Below are positions 43,055 to 49,449 of a stretch of DNA of 64,000 nt, piece by piece. Under the pieces are notes generated by a model. The model had not been told where the DNA came from. It saw only the letters and a list, made by a program, of their open reading frames with translations, and searched no databases. The position numbers and the translations under genes are program-made. This DNA is from Fimbriimonas ginsengisoli Gsoil 348 (lineage in GTDB: Bacteria > Armatimonadota > Fimbriimonadia > Fimbriimonadales > Fimbriimonadaceae), in the NCBI RefSeq assembly GCF_000724625.1, contig NZ_CP007139.1, forward strand, positions 3,100,001 through 3,164,000, read 5' to 3'. Within the stretch, counting starts at the first letter, position 1; every line of letters starts with the position of its first letter.

Positions 43055-43060
43055 TGGGTG

Positions 43061-43498
43061 ATGGAGCTCGAGCTAACGATTCAACAGGTCTCGGAGGCAA
43101 CGGGGCTGACGGCGCATACTCTGCGCTACTACGAACGAGCGGGATTGCTCCCGCGGGTCGATCGAAACGGGGGCGGCCACCGCCGGTACCATCCGCTTGC
43201 GATCGACTCCCTGCTGTTTCTCACCCGGCTTCGCTCCACCGGCATGCCAATTCACCAGGTTCGGCGATACGCCGAGCTGGCTCGGGAGGGGGTGCACACC
43301 ATTCCCGAGCGAAAAGCGCTCCTCGAAGCGCACCGCGAGACGGTCCTTTCGCACATTGCGGAGCTGAATCGGAACCTCGCCGCGCTCGACTACAAGATCG
43401 GACTATACGAGCAGGGATGGGTGCCTGAGAATGGCATCGACGACCCTTGCTTACGCGAGCTTCGCCGGCTGTGCGGAGCGACGGAGGAAGAAGAATGA
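43061..43498 (+). CDS. MerR family transcriptional regulator
   Basis: An N-terminal winged helix ([26 protein letters not shown], then [11 protein letters not shown]) is followed by a dimerisation helix and a 40-residue C-terminus with one cysteine in DDPCLREL and another in RRLCGA. It resembles the AdhR/NmlR branch that senses aldehydes or electrophiles. The ATG 43061 lies directly after GTG 43058. Its stop overlaps the reductase start, so they are one operon, autoregulated from the palindrome upstream. Confidence 0.93.
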
Positions 43499-44499
43499 AA
43501 ACCAGAAAAATCGGAGACCAGACGGTTGGCGCTATCGGGCTAGGCTGCATGGGGATGTCGTTCGCCTACGGCCCGGGCAACGACGACGAGTCGACACGGG
43601 TTCTCCACCGTGCGCTGGAACTCGGCGTGAATCACTGGGACACCGCGGATATGTACGGAATGGGCGCCAACGAGCGGCTCCTTTCCGGAACGCTCAAGAC
43701 CCGCCGTGACGAGGTGTTCCTCGGTACCAAATTCGGCAACGTGTTCGACCGCACCTTGTCATCGCACCGCGAGAAGGCGGCGGACTCAAGTCTCACCTAC
43801 TTCGTCGATGGCACCCCGGCCTACGCGCGAAAGAGCCTGGAAAACTCCCTCCAGAGATTAGGCGTGGACCATGTGGACCTCTACTATCTCCACCGAATCG
43901 ACCCCGAGGTGCCGATCGAGGAAACGATCGGGGCGATGGCGGAGTTCGTTCGCGAGGGGAAGGTTCGCTTCCTCGGCATTAGCGAAGCGTCGGCGGAAAC
44001 GGTCCGCCGGGCTCACGCCACCCACCCGATCGCGGCCGTCCAGAACGAGCTGTCGCTCTGGACGCAAGACTTCCTGCCGGACGTGGTGCCGACGACGAAG
44101 GAACTCGGCGTCGCCTTCGTGGCTTATTCTCCGCTCGGACGCGGATTTCTTACGGGTCAGATTAAGTCGATCGAGGATCTCCCCGCCGACGACTGGCGGC
44201 GCAACAATCCCCGATTCCAGGGTGAAAACTTCCGACGCAATCTCGTCATCGTCGACCACGTGAAGGCGATCGCGGCTCGGCACGGGGTGACGCCGGGGCA
44301 AGTCGCCTTGGCTTGGACGCTGGCCCAGGGGGAGCACGTGGCGCCGATCCCGGGAACGAAGAAGCTCAAGTACCTCGAAGAGAACACCGCTGCTCAAGAC
44401 CTGGTCCTCACTCCGGACGACCTCGCCCGACTCTCCGGCTTGGAACCCACCGCCGGAACCCGATACCCGGAAGCGATGATGTCGGCCGTCGCTCGATAG
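43495..44499 (+). CDS. Aldo/keto reductase
   Basis: This NADPH-dependent TIM-barrel reductase has 334 residues. The catalytic tetrad is D49 and Y54 (WDTADMYG), K79 (FLGTKFG) and H133 (LYYLHRID). The cofactor-binding C-terminal part includes [14 protein letters not shown]. The start ATG 43495 overlaps the merR stop (ATGA). Regulation by an AdhR-like MerR protein suggests that it detoxifies reactive aldehydes. Confidence 0.95.
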
Positions 44500-44700: not shown

Positions 44701-47700
44701 GTGTTTCTTGCGGCGTGCTTAGCGATGTTGGTAGGTGCGCCCGATCCGGTGGCGATCGGGCGGGAGGAGATTTCGAGGGTTGCCGGGTCGAAGGCGAGCG
44801 CGGTGGTCCTGCGAATCGCGCCGGGATCCAAAGAGGGGTTCCGGATCTCCGGCGACGGCGGCAAAGTCCAGATCGTCGGCTCGGACCCGGTCGGCGCCAT
44901 GTACGGGGCGTTTGAGTTTGCCGAGCGGTTGCGAAACAACGGCGCGAGCGCCTGGTCGACGAAGGTCGAGCAGAAGCCGTTCCTGGCCGACCGAGGACTG
45001 AACCTCTTCCTTACGCTCCCTTGGAATTACGTCAAGAACGACACCGATTACGATCCCGCCGCGCTGACCGATCCGAACCGGTGGTGGTTTCACAACGAGG
45101 ACTACTGGAAAACCCTCCTCGACCTGATGGCGCATAGCCGGCTGAACTGGTTGGATATCCACGGGACTTGGGATATCAGTGTTACGGATGCGCCCAATCT
45201 GTATGCTTATTTTATACAGAGCGACAAGTTTCCGCAGGTGGGCGTAGCGTCTGAGGTCAAGGCGGCAAACCTGCGGCAGCTCAACCACGTGATTGACATG
45301 GCGCACTCGCGAGGAATCCGAGTGAGCCTGATGGCGTACCAGGCCGACCTCCGAATCCCCCAGAACCGCACCCCGCCTTATAAGAACGACGAGCCGACGA
45401 TCTACGACTACACGCGAGACGTCGTTGAGCGGATGATTCGGCAAGCGCCCGGTCTCGATGCGATCGGATTCCGAATCGGAGAGAGCGGCAAGAGCGAGTC
45501 GTTCTTCAAGTGCTACGGCGAAGCGGTCAAGCGGAGCGGGCGAGACATTCCCCTCATTACGCGTAGTTGGATCACGAGGCGGCAAAACGTGCTCCCGCTC
45601 GCCCGGGCGTCGAAAGACTTCACCGTCGAGATCAAATACAACGGCGAGCAGTGGGGCGCGCCGTACCCGGTGGCGGGCGGACGGATGCCGAACTGGTACA
45701 GCTATTCGTTCGAGGATTACCTGAGCGACGCGGGCGATCCGAAGCTGAACGCCAAAACCTGGCCCGGTCAGCCGACCGAGGATGGCAAGCGCTGGCCGAG
45801 CGAGCCGTACAAGGTCGTTTGGCAGGTTCGGGCGAACGGAACTCACCGGATTTTTCCGTTCTACAACCCGGAATGGGTGCGGCGGTCGATCAAGGCGATG
45901 CGAATGGGCACCGCCTCCGGCTACACGATCGAGGGGCTAGACGCCTACTACCCAAAGTCGCCGGATTACTACCTCGCCGATCCGAAGGACAAATACTGCA
46001 ACTGGATCCATCAGCGCGACGAGATGTACTGGATGACCTGGGGCCGCCTTGGCTACGACCCGACGGTTCCGGAGGCGACGTTCGACGCCCAGGCGGATCG
46101 CTTGCTCGGTAAGGGCTCGCACCCGCTGGTTCAAGCTTGGAAAGAGGCGAGCCTGTTGATGCCGAAAGCGTTCATGGCTTACAGTCTCGGACCCGACCAT
46201 CGGAACCATGCGCCGGAATTAGAGTGGGGCGGCGATACGTCCGCTTACGTTCAGGGGCAGGGCCTAGATAGTTTTTCGTTCCTACCGATCAATGAGGAGT
46301 TAGCCAATCGAGCGACGGGTGGGGTCGACGGCCGTATTCCTCTCTTAGATGTCGCCCGAGACCAAGGTATCCCGGAAACACTGCTCGGTAGGACTGCCAG
46401 TTTTTTCCAGTCGCCGAGCTTGCGGGCGAGGGAGATTGCCGAGACCGTCGTAATGGACAGCACCCTCGCATCCTACTATCAAGGACGCTTCACCGCGGCA
46501 TCCGAGTATGCGCAGACCGAGGCTGCACAGGGGCCCCCGGGAGCCACGGACCTAATGAGATCCAGCATGCGGGACGCCGCCGAGGCGATGCGGTTGCTGG
46601 GCACGAATACTCGCTACAAGCCATTTACCGAGCGGCTTCGGATGCGCACGAACACCTTCTCTTGGTCTGGGGAGGCGAAGAAGGTCGCCGACGAGGTTGC
46701 GCGGTTGCATGGGCTCCCTGGGGCGATCAATCCGGTTCCATCCATTGTAAGCGGGGCCGGTCGAAAGCGCGACGAGGCGATGTCGTGGTTCGATACCGGC
46801 AAGACGATTACGTGCGCTCTCCGGGCGCCCTTCGCGGATAGAGCCTGGCTGCTGGTGAAGCCGTTGCCAAGCTCAACGTTCTTCCATCGCATTCCGATGC
46901 GGCGTCACGGCACCCAGTTTGAAGCAGAGTTCGATCGGGACCGTTGTGGCCACATGGTGGCGGCGGAGCTGCTTTACGGGAGGAAAGCGGTCCGTTATCC
47001 GGGTCCGTTCCCGGTCGCCCCGTACTTGGTTATTCCCGCTCGGTCCGGCCCGACGCCGCAGATCTACAACGCAACGGAGGCGGCTTCCCATCTGAAACCG
47101 TCGGTGATCGATTCATCCAAATATGGCGGACTTCTGCTAGGGACCCGCGCTTGGGCGTTCTTTAGCTCGTTCGACCGGGCGACCAAGCGAAAGCTGCTCG
47201 ACCCGGTGGAGCGCGGGATGCGGCTGGTCATCCTTCAGCAGGACTTCAACCGGTACAAGCTCGATTGGCTGCCCAAGCCACTAAAGATCGAGCCAGCTAA
47301 CAATTCGGTCTTCGACCCGGGCGGGCAACTCGGCCTTGGTAAGGTTGAGACGGCCGGAATTATGTGGCAGCGCTTCGCGCCTAGCGAGGGTTGGGAGATA
47401 TTCGGCAATGGGGGACTCGCCCGCATGAAGCTCGGCAAAGGCGAGATTTGGGTGACGAGCGCGCGGCTGATGCAGACGATGCATCTGCCCGCATCGGCAA
47501 AGGCGTTCGTTCGCTTGCTGAGCCTAGGCGGAAAAACGAAGCCGACAATTCTCGTCGACAGTTGCAGCGAGGGTGCCGAATTCACTAGCTCTTGCCACCC
47601 CGACCTGATGAATTCGCACGATATTCCTTTCATGACGCTCGGCGAGGTCATCGCCAAGGAACAAGGCATGGACAGCTTTACAACGATTCCCGGTCCCGTG

Positions 47701-49449
47701 GCCGACGACGATTTGCTCGGCGGAAAGGGGGCGGAGATTGCCAACAAATTCCTTCGCGACCGCGTCGTCAGCCTCTCCAAACGCCCTACCCCGGCCTCGG
47801 CCGCCGACTTCGAGCCGGAGCGCGCGCGACGGAGAAAGGAGCTGTTGAGGACGCTCGGCCTCGACCCGATGCCGGCCAAGACGCCGCTCAATGCCCGCAT
47901 CACCGGACGCATCCAGCGAAACGGATATCACATCGAGAAGCTCGTTTTCGAGAGCCGGCCGAAGTTTTATGTGACGGCTCACGTGTACGTCCCGGACCGT
48001 CCTGCCGAGGCGAAGATGCCGGTCATCGTCAACGTCAACGGCCACTGGGCGCATAAGAAAGGGGAGGACCGGCTGCAGTATCGCTCCGCTTTCCAGGCCT
48101 TGCATGGCTACATGGCGGTGACCATCGACAGTCCTGGGTGGAGCTTTGAAGGCGACTCGCTCATCGAGCGGCGGCCCGAGGGGGACCACAACGACTTCAA
48201 GCTGGTGGAAGGCGGCACCAACACGACCGGTTACTACGTCTGGGACGCCATACGGGCGCTGGACTACGTCGAGACCCGGCCCGATGCGGACATGAGCCGC
48301 ATCGGCCTAACCGGCGCTTCCGGCGGCGGCCTGGCCACCCTCTATTTGTTCGCGGCCGACGACCGGTACAAGGCGGCGGTCCCGGTGGTCTATATGTCGA
48401 GCATGGAGCTGGCGCCGGACAACGGCTGCCTCTGCAACCATGTCCCAGGTACGTCGCTGATCGGCGATCGCTCGGACGTCATCGGAATCCAGGCGCCCAA
48501 GCCGGTGCTTCTGATGGGCGCTCAAAACGACGGCGAATTCCCGCCCGACGCGATGCGGCTCACCCACAAGAAGATGGGCGAGACGTGGCGGCTGTTCGGG
48601 AAGCAAGACGACGTCTACGTGAAGATTTTCCCGGGCGGGCACGACTACAGCAAGCCGATGCGGGAGACGATGATGGGATTCTTCGACCGCTATCTTCTTA
48701 AGAAGGGAGACGGCTCGCCGGTGCCCGAGCCACCGATCGAGTTACTGAACCCCGAAGACCGATCGATCCTGGTCCTCGACCCGCCGATCGCCGGCGAGCG
48801 GACGATGCGCGATCTGTCGAAGGAGTACCTAGCCGCCGCGCCGGCGGCGGCTTCGGTCGCTGAAGTCTTTCGGGTGAATGGAGGCGTACCGGCTCGGACC
48901 GATATGAAGTACCACGAGATTGGCGACGGACCGAAGCGAACGGTTACCTTTGAGTCGGAACCCGGGCTAGCCACCCCCGGAGTCTTGGTCCTCCCATCCG
49001 GCAAGCCGTCGGGCGTCCGAATCGTTGTGGCCGACGACGGCAAATCCCCTGAGGTGCGACCCTCGACCGATGGTTTCGCCACCCTGTACTTGGACACCCT
49101 CGGTACCGGAGAGCTCGCCGGTTTCGACATGCGGTACGCAGTCTACGCGGGCCGTTCGGTGGCGTTTACTGGCGGCTGGCAAATCGCGCGCGCGGCTGAG
49201 GCGATGCGGAAGTATTCCAACCACATCGAAGTTGTGGGCAAAGGACCGCTCTCGTCCCAGGCCGCCATGTACGCCGGCCTCATGGACCCCACATTCGCCA
49301 AGGTCACCGGCATCGACTGTCTGAGAACCTGGGCCGACGTCTTCGCCGACGGCATCCCAGACTACGCGGTGCAGCCGCGGGCGCACCTTTGCGGGTTACT
49401 GGAGAGTCTGCGGGCGAAAGTGAAGAACGGGGATTGGCGTTTACGTTGA
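44701..49449 (+). CDS. Giant secreted glycosidase / alpha-beta-hydrolase fusion (1582 aa)
   Basis: It is probably a plant-polysaccharide enzyme. A short signal-like leader is followed by an alpha-glucuronidase/GH20-type N-terminal domain (about 45-92, VQIVGSDPVGAMYGAFEFAE), then a TIM-barrel glycosidase-like domain (about 95-560: LNWLDIHGTWDIS, IGFRIGESGKSE, VEIKYNGEQWG, YTIEGLDAYYPKS). A helical and a beta-rich domain (about 560-1010) follow. An acetyl-xylan-esterase-like alpha/beta hydrolase (about 1040-1370) has nucleophile S1207 (GLTGASGGGLA) and His1315 (PGGHDYSKP). A second, degenerate hydrolase-like domain ends the protein. GTG 44701 has GGCGGAG upstream. The enzyme family is inferred from short motifs only. 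Confidence 0.75.
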   Translation: MFLAACLAMLVGAPDPVAIGREEISRVAGSKASAVVLRIAPGSKEGFRISGDGGKVQIVGSDPVGAMYGAFEFAERLRNNGASAWSTKVEQKPFLADRGLNLFLTLPWNYVKNDTDYDPAALTDPNRWWFHNEDYWKTLLDLMAHSRLNWLDIHGTWDISVTDAPNLYAYFIQSDKFPQVGVASEVKAANLRQLNHVIDMAHSRGIRVSLMAYQADLRIPQNRTPPYKNDEPTIYDYTRDVVERMIRQAPGLDAIGFRIGESGKSESFFKCYGEAVKRSGRDIPLITRSWITRRQNVLPLARASKDFTVEIKYNGEQWGAPYPVAGGRMPNWYSYSFEDYLSDAGDPKLNAKTWPGQPTEDGKRWPSEPYKVVWQVRANGTHRIFPFYNPEWVRRSIKAMRMGTASGYTIEGLDAYYPKSPDYYLADPKDKYCNWIHQRDEMYWMTWGRLGYDPTVPEATFDAQADRLLGKGSHPLVQAWKEASLLMPKAFMAYSLGPDHRNHAPELEWGGDTSAYVQGQGLDSFSFLPINEELANRATGGVDGRIPLLDVARDQGIPETLLGRTASFFQSPSLRAREIAETVVMDSTLASYYQGRFTAASEYAQTEAAQGPPGATDLMRSSMRDAAEAMRLLGTNTRYKPFTERLRMRTNTFSWSGEAKKVADEVARLHGLPGAINPVPSIVSGAGRKRDEAMSWFDTGKTITCALRAPFADRAWLLVKPLPSSTFFHRIPMRRHGTQFEAEFDRDRCGHMVAAELLYGRKAVRYPGPFPVAPYLVIPARSGPTPQIYNATEAASHLKPSVIDSSKYGGLLLGTRAWAFFSSFDRATKRKLLDPVERGMRLVILQQDFNRYKLDWLPKPLKIEPANNSVFDPGGQLGLGKVETAGIMWQRFAPSEGWEIFGNGGLARMKLGKGEIWVTSARLMQTMHLPASAKAFVRLLSLGGKTKPTILVDSCSEGAEFTSSCHPDLMNSHDIPFMTLGEVIAKEQGMDSFTTIPGPVADDDLLGGKGAEIANKFLRDRVVSLSKRPTPASAADFEPERARRRKELLRTLGLDPMPAKTPLNARITGRIQRNGYHIEKLVFESRPKFYVTAHVYVPDRPAEAKMPVIVNVNGHWAHKKGEDRLQYRSAFQALHGYMAVTIDSPGWSFEGDSLIERRPEGDHNDFKLVEGGTNTTGYYVWDAIRALDYVETRPDADMSRIGLTGASGGGLATLYLFAADDRYKAAVPVVYMSSMELAPDNGCLCNHVPGTSLIGDRSDVIGIQAPKPVLLMGAQNDGEFPPDAMRLTHKKMGETWRLFGKQDDVYVKIFPGGHDYSKPMRETMMGFFDRYLLKKGDGSPVPEPPIELLNPEDRSILVLDPPIAGERTMRDLSKEYLAAAPAAASVAEVFRVNGGVPARTDMKYHEIGDGPKRTVTFESEPGLATPGVLVLPSGKPSGVRIVVADDGKSPEVRPSTDGFATLYLDTLGTGELAGFDMRYAVYAGRSVAFTGGWQIARAAEAMRKYSNHIEVVGKGPLSSQAAMYAGLMDPTFAKVTGIDCLRTWADVFADGIPDYAVQPRAHLCGLLESLRAKVKNGDWRLR

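Follow-up and report, generated by a model that had tools for sequence, protein, structure and literature searches.

The window analysed here is a stretch of 64,000 nucleotides from the genome of the soil bacterium Fimbriimonas ginsengisoli Gsoil 348 (Armatimonadota), which consists of a single contig of 5,231,762 bases. Positions 44701..49449 of its forward strand hold an open reading frame of 1582 open codons that begins with GTG and encodes a protein of 1582 amino acids with a short, weak signal-peptide-like N-terminus (residues 1-15). The GC content by codon position is 61/47/78%, which matches a coding frame at such GC. Full-length homologues with 48-67% identity, an identical layout and no internal stops are encoded in about 20 Fimbriimonadaceae-type genomes, and because of these stop-free homologues we conclude that the reading frame is real and that the fusion is retained in related genomes. 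For the same reason a chance open reading frame was rejected, and retention of the layout in many genomes likewise led us to reject a sequencing or assembly fusion. The named relatives come from Fimbriimonadaceae and Armatimonadetes MAGs, and the full-length homologues from many genomes of the family and its order. In the genome-wide scan outside the phylum we found near relatives only, plus those carried by Haladaptatus on plasmids. Upstream of the fusion gene, the window encodes an aldo/keto reductase, a MerR-type regulator and an MFS protein; the reductase (43498-44499) and the regulator (43058-43498) are located just upstream on the same strand and have no obvious link to the use of uronate.

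In order to delimit the domains we used HMM models made from the fusion homologues, which place the glycosidase at residues 2-745, the middle part at 703-1000, the esterase at 1002-1361 and the C-terminal domain at 1371-1579. Read from the N-terminus, and all on the forward strand, the protein comprises a GH138-like glycosidase (residues 16-690, 44746..46770), with an N-terminal GH20b/67N/NAGLU_N-type domain, a barrel and a helical C-terminal part; a middle region (residues 700-1000, 46798..47700), which is beta-sandwich-like at first and alpha/beta thereafter; a BT1017/CE19-like serine esterase domain (residues 1011-1370, 47731..48810), recognized by sequence and fold searches; and a degenerate second esterase-like domain (residues 1371-1582, 48811..49446), recognized by hhalign with the esterase profile. 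All four parts named by the first-pass annotation, including an active-looking serine esterase with a GASGGG motif and a degenerate hydrolase end, are thus present in one polypeptide. The description of the middle part as beta-rich holds for about residues 690-765, while the remainder is predicted to be mixed alpha/beta.

The middle region was also detected by the HMM models in the stand-alone barrel proteins of loci L042 and L043, and because of this we assign it, as judged from sequence, to the glycosidase half. The C-terminal domain, in turn, is found in the stand-alone esterases of loci L023 and L028. Taken together, these distributions argue that the fusion protein is the union of two ancestral units, one composed of the barrel and the middle region and the other of the esterase and its C-terminal neighbor. 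The profile of the C-terminal domain aligns with that of the esterase domain with an hhalign probability of 96% (E 4.7e-9), and its nucleophile elbow has changed from GxSxG to GKGPLSS. A nucleophile serine at this elbow was found in 0 of 20 aligned homologues; an active C-terminal hydrolase was rejected on this ground, and its sequence marks the domain as a partial, dead esterase copy.

A single-sequence search with the barrel gave a weak match to the GH138 enzyme BPa0997 (1e-5), and a ten-member barrel profile searched against the PDB with hmmsearch matched BPa0997 (6hzf) at 3e-27 over nearly the whole length. The NCBIfam alpha-D-galacturonidase model (NF049878) is matched by all ten members; the barrel of the window scores 48 bits against a curated cut-off of 1300, which is not reached. 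Given this score, we name the barrel GH138-like rather than an alpha-D-galacturonidase equivalog, and its specificity may differ from that of the named enzyme. The structure model of the barrel is only fair (pLDDT 59) and poor in its second half, with pLDDT under 50 over residues 272-441. Foldseek searches with this model returned the BPa0997 entries 6hzf and 6hze as the top matches (2.2e-15), and VIA-align gave a Z score of 14.9 with BPa0997 over 459 aligned residues (rmsd 9.8 A). Thus, by both profile and predicted fold, the closest solved relative of the barrel is the RG-II alpha-galacturonidase BPa0997. VIA-align also gave a nearly tied Z score of 13.4 with GH84, over about 240 residues; a GH84 or GH20 hexosaminidase was rejected, since the N-terminal domain and the early barrel are common to these enzymes and sequence profiles match the N-terminal domain only. 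The barrel had previously been called glucuronidase-like, of which the barrel-type glycosidase stands and the glucuronidase does not: the Pfam match to GH67N reaches 17.4 bits against a cut-off of 24.3, spans 30 residues and is accompanied by no other GH67 domain, and a GH67 or GH115 glucuronidase was rejected as lacking profile support, the barrel profile finding GH138 instead.

Two glutamates, E261 (in RIGESG; 45481..45483, forward strand) and E316 (in KYNGE; 45646..45648, forward strand), are conserved without exception in 26 barrels from two deep clades, and R98, K312 and G448 are likewise invariant across these very distant clades. The conserved motifs RIGES, TRSW, KYNGEQ, RANGTHR and GPDHR.HAPELE are pocket-like, and stand-alone barrels retain the conserved residues and motifs. 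In both single-sequence and profile searches E316 falls on E361 of BPa0997, which is the position mutated in PDB entry 6hzg (E361S). E261, the proposed catalytic acid/base, meets E294 of BPa0997, which we take to be the second catalytic glutamate of GH138, only after a one-residue shift relative to the HMMER alignment, and is likely its equivalent. The active site of the barrel therefore looks intact in prediction.

The top Pfam match of the esterase domain is AXE1 (30.4 bits against a cut-off of 21, over 150 residues), and S9 and DLH are matched as well. It had been assigned to the acetyl-xylan esterase type, and AXE1 is indeed its best Pfam match, but comparison with solved structures points elsewhere. 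A sequence search against these structures gave 1.6e-19 for BT1017 (6goc) versus 1.4e-8 for CE7, and Foldseek also placed BT1017 nearest (1.6e-15). With VIA-align, BT1017 reaches a Z score of 27.0 over 318 residues (rmsd 3.4 A), the next match is 4.5 lower (22.5), and CE15 glucuronoyl esterases and CE7 score about 22 and about 18, respectively. Sequence and modelled fold thus clearly indicate that the nearest solved relative of the domain is BT1017, an RG-II pectin methylesterase, and not an acetyl-xylan esterase. BT1017 has a catalytic triad of S282, D352 and H388 and binds zinc through H201, H244, C315 and C317 (PMC7939467). The residues aligned with the triad are the nucleophile S1207 (in GASGGG; 48319..48321), the acid D1277 (48529..48531) and H1314 (48640..48642), all three on the forward strand and present in each of 28 distinct homologues; the catalytic histidine had earlier been placed at position 1315, which is an aspartate. 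The zinc ligands correspond, in the same order and on the same strand, to H1115 (in NGHW; 48043..48045, 28/28 homologues), which is also the putative oxyanion histidine, H1163 (48187..48189, 26/28), and C1243 and C1245 of a C-x-C motif (48427..48435, 28/28). With its triad and zinc ligands in place, the predicted active site of the esterase looks intact. The same genome also encodes a paralogous stand-alone esterase (L002, 4358387-4359358) that is 44% identical.

The pairing of the two families is not restricted to this fusion. Loci L078 (2982-8189) and L079 (2180-7552) encode proteins of 1735 and 1790 amino acids, respectively, in which a GH138-like barrel and a BT1017-like tandem esterase are joined in the same order; the former comes from another family of the phylum and the latter from a Fimbriimonadaceae genome. 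In both the barrel and the esterase trees this second fusion belongs to a supported clade different from that of the main fusion, and for this reason the trees are best read as recording two fusion events. The main split of the barrel tree has support of 100/99, but long branches meet there, and one old fusion followed by many splits stays a less favored alternative. At locus L039 the two families are encoded by separate adjacent genes, the esterase followed by the barrel with a 4-base overlap, while the flanks of the other barrel-only loci retrieved contain no esterase gene. The stand-alone esterase of L023 (L047:9020-10939) has the fused esterases as its closest relatives and no barrel within the flanking 19 kb, which likely reflects loss of the glycosidase half. 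A further multi-domain architecture of the tandem esterase occurs in L080 (1446-8855), where it occupies residues 562-1149 of a 2470-residue open reading frame that is cut by the contig end and has a long remainder without domain assignment.

Genomic neighborhoods of the relatives contain several genes that bear on the substrate. Beside the fusion of L036 and that of L038, and divergent from it, lies a gene for an MFS carrier of the galactonate/hexuronate family (TIGR00893); the scores, 236-242 bits, are below the cut-off of 395. Enolase-superfamily genes similar to those of galactonate or galactarate dehydratases are found in the vicinity of the L039 pair and of the L046 esterase. Several such sugar-acid dehydratase-like (MR/MLE) genes, together with several MFS carriers, are also present on a plasmid of the haloarchaeon Haladaptatus sp. 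QDMS2 (L088:32785-58644), in an island where four GH138-like genes carry the annotation hypothetical; one of these four barrels has lost both invariant glutamates and the other three retain them. No pectin gene cluster was seen around the fusion gene within the window, and the genes adjoining it there are uninformative. The genome of strain Gsoil 348 has one GH28 gene, and UxaC was not found in it, which means that the usual isomerase pathway for galacturonate is missing.

We propose, with a probability of roughly 55%, that the fusion protein acts in two steps on ester-masked uronic acids of pectin-type polymers, the esterase unmasking what the barrel then cleaves. It would be an exported or cell-envelope enzyme. 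By analogy with BT1017, S1207, D1277 and H1314 would hydrolyse a methyl-type ester on the carboxylate of the uronic acid, with H1115 contributing to the oxyanion hole while tied to the zinc that it would bind together with H1163, C1243 and C1245. By analogy with GH138, E261 and E316 would then serve as the catalytic carboxylates that hydrolyse an alpha-uronosyl linkage of the galacturonosyl type, and the invariant arginine and lysine residues of the barrel would take up the freed carboxylate. The presumed order is ester removal followed by uronosyl hydrolysis at that site or nearby. The last 210 residues, i.e. the dead esterase copy, are probably a structural or substrate-positioning part. Pectin, in the form of homogalacturonan or RG-II-like chains, is the likeliest substrate because both nearest solved relatives act on RG-II and because the two families are repeatedly joined. 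BT1017 itself acts on RG-II (PMC7939467), the titles of the PDB entries tie the solved relatives of both halves to RG-II, and the sugar-acid MFS carriers and dehydratase-like genes near relatives of the fusion or of its halves fit the same reading.

The substrate is nevertheless the weakest link of this pectin-type reading, given the distance of the barrel from GH138 and the warning of the authors of the BT1017 study that distant relatives of that enzyme may act on other substrates (PMC7939467). The low score against the galacturonidase model, the one-residue shift at E294, the poor barrel model and the weak signal peptide all count against the proposal, as do the missing pectin cluster in the window, the single GH28 gene and the absence of UxaC from the genome. 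Several of these observations would be accommodated if both halves acted on another uronic acid polymer, such as a microbial or cyanobacterial exopolysaccharide, a glycosaminoglycan-like chain or an algal polysaccharide, with the barrel representing an unnamed family beside GH138. The low identity to BPa0997 and a score far under the galacturonidase cut-off are what such a family would be expected to show, the several related barrel copies on Haladaptatus plasmids are an unlikely setting for RG-II, and the caution of the BT1017 authors and the lack of UxaC point the same way. On the other hand, RG-II enzymes are the nearest solved relatives of the two halves independently of each other, and the neighbors in relatives indicate galactonate- or galacturonate-like products; we therefore regard another polymer as rather unlikely.

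Acetylated glucuronoxylan, on which an alpha-glucuronidase-type barrel and an acetyl-xylan esterase would act jointly, is improbable as the substrate. AXE1 as the top Pfam match, the weak match to the N-terminal domain of GH67 and the presence of CE15 glucuronoyl esterases in the fold list are consistent with it, but in sequence and fold alike BT1017 is ahead of both CE7 and CE15, its zinc ligands are conserved, and the GH67N match is short and below its cut-off, whereas the barrel profile finds GH138 and not GH67 or GH115. The hemicellulose substrate suggested by the first-pass annotation accordingly gives way to pectin-type uronates, which fit better because the esterase is nearest to BT1017 and the barrel matches both GH138 and the alpha-D-galacturonidase model. 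It is also conceivable that the esterase alone is catalytic and that the barrel serves for binding or as a scaffold, as could be suspected from its low-confidence model and its place in a subgroup without known activity. This we consider very improbable, given that E261, K312, E316, R98 and G448 do not vary among barrels of distant clades, that the conserved motifs are pocket-like and that stand-alone barrels retain the conserved residues. A bolder reading, possible but doubtful, takes the barrel as the founder of a new glycosidase family that neighbors GH138 and has a uronosyl specificity of its own. Its fusion with BT1017-type tandem esterases, on two or more occasions, would then be due to a glycosidase that accepts nothing but uronate freshly unmasked by the esterase, and the protein would be a single-chain enzyme that demethylates and cleaves, the dead copy serving as a substrate guide.

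The systems available for comparison are BPa0997 and BT0997, the GH138 alpha-galacturonidases of RG-II chain A (PDB 6hze, 6hzf, 6hzg), and BT1017 (PDB 6goc), which we take to be CE19 in CAZy. With BPa0997 the fusion shares an N-terminal GH20b-like domain, a barrel and a helical part that align nearly end to end, as well as the KYNGE glutamate; identity is about 15-20%, however, and the PDB constructs have no attached esterase. With BT1017 it shares the cap and alpha/beta hydrolase, the S/D/H triad, the oxyanion histidine and a zinc site of two histidines and two cysteines, but identity is about 22%, and BT1017 ends in a DUF3826 domain rather than a dead esterase copy and lacks a glycosidase. 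Stand-alone "acetylxylan esterase"-like proteins of Armatimonadota (550-700 amino acids; L023, L028 and the paralogue L002) contain the same esterase, with the same dead second copy in L023 and L028, and have no glycosidase half. Fusions of glycosidases with carbohydrate esterases are known, e.g. of a xylanase with an acetyl-xylan or feruloyl esterase; they likewise unite a glycosidase with a debranching esterase in a single polypeptide but involve other families and another substrate class. No case of a GH138-like barrel joined to a BT1017-like tandem esterase was found in the literature searched, and within that literature the earlier statement that no named family has this layout holds. The partner domains reported for BT1017 are GH28, S9, beta-lactamase, symporter and xylose-isomerase-like domains, and GH138 is not among them (PMC7939467).

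These results extend two small families, GH138 and that of BT1017, to Armatimonadota, with residues that can be tested. As it is known, the degradation of RG-II and methyl-esterified pectin takes a score of separate Bacteroides enzymes. If the pectin-type proposal is true, the unmasking of a uronic acid and its cleavage by one and the same chain, which is retained across a poorly characterised phylum and arose by fusion more than once, would reveal that these steps are coupled. Such an enzyme would also provide a one-enzyme tool for work on pectin and a first handle on the diet of Fimbriimonadaceae.
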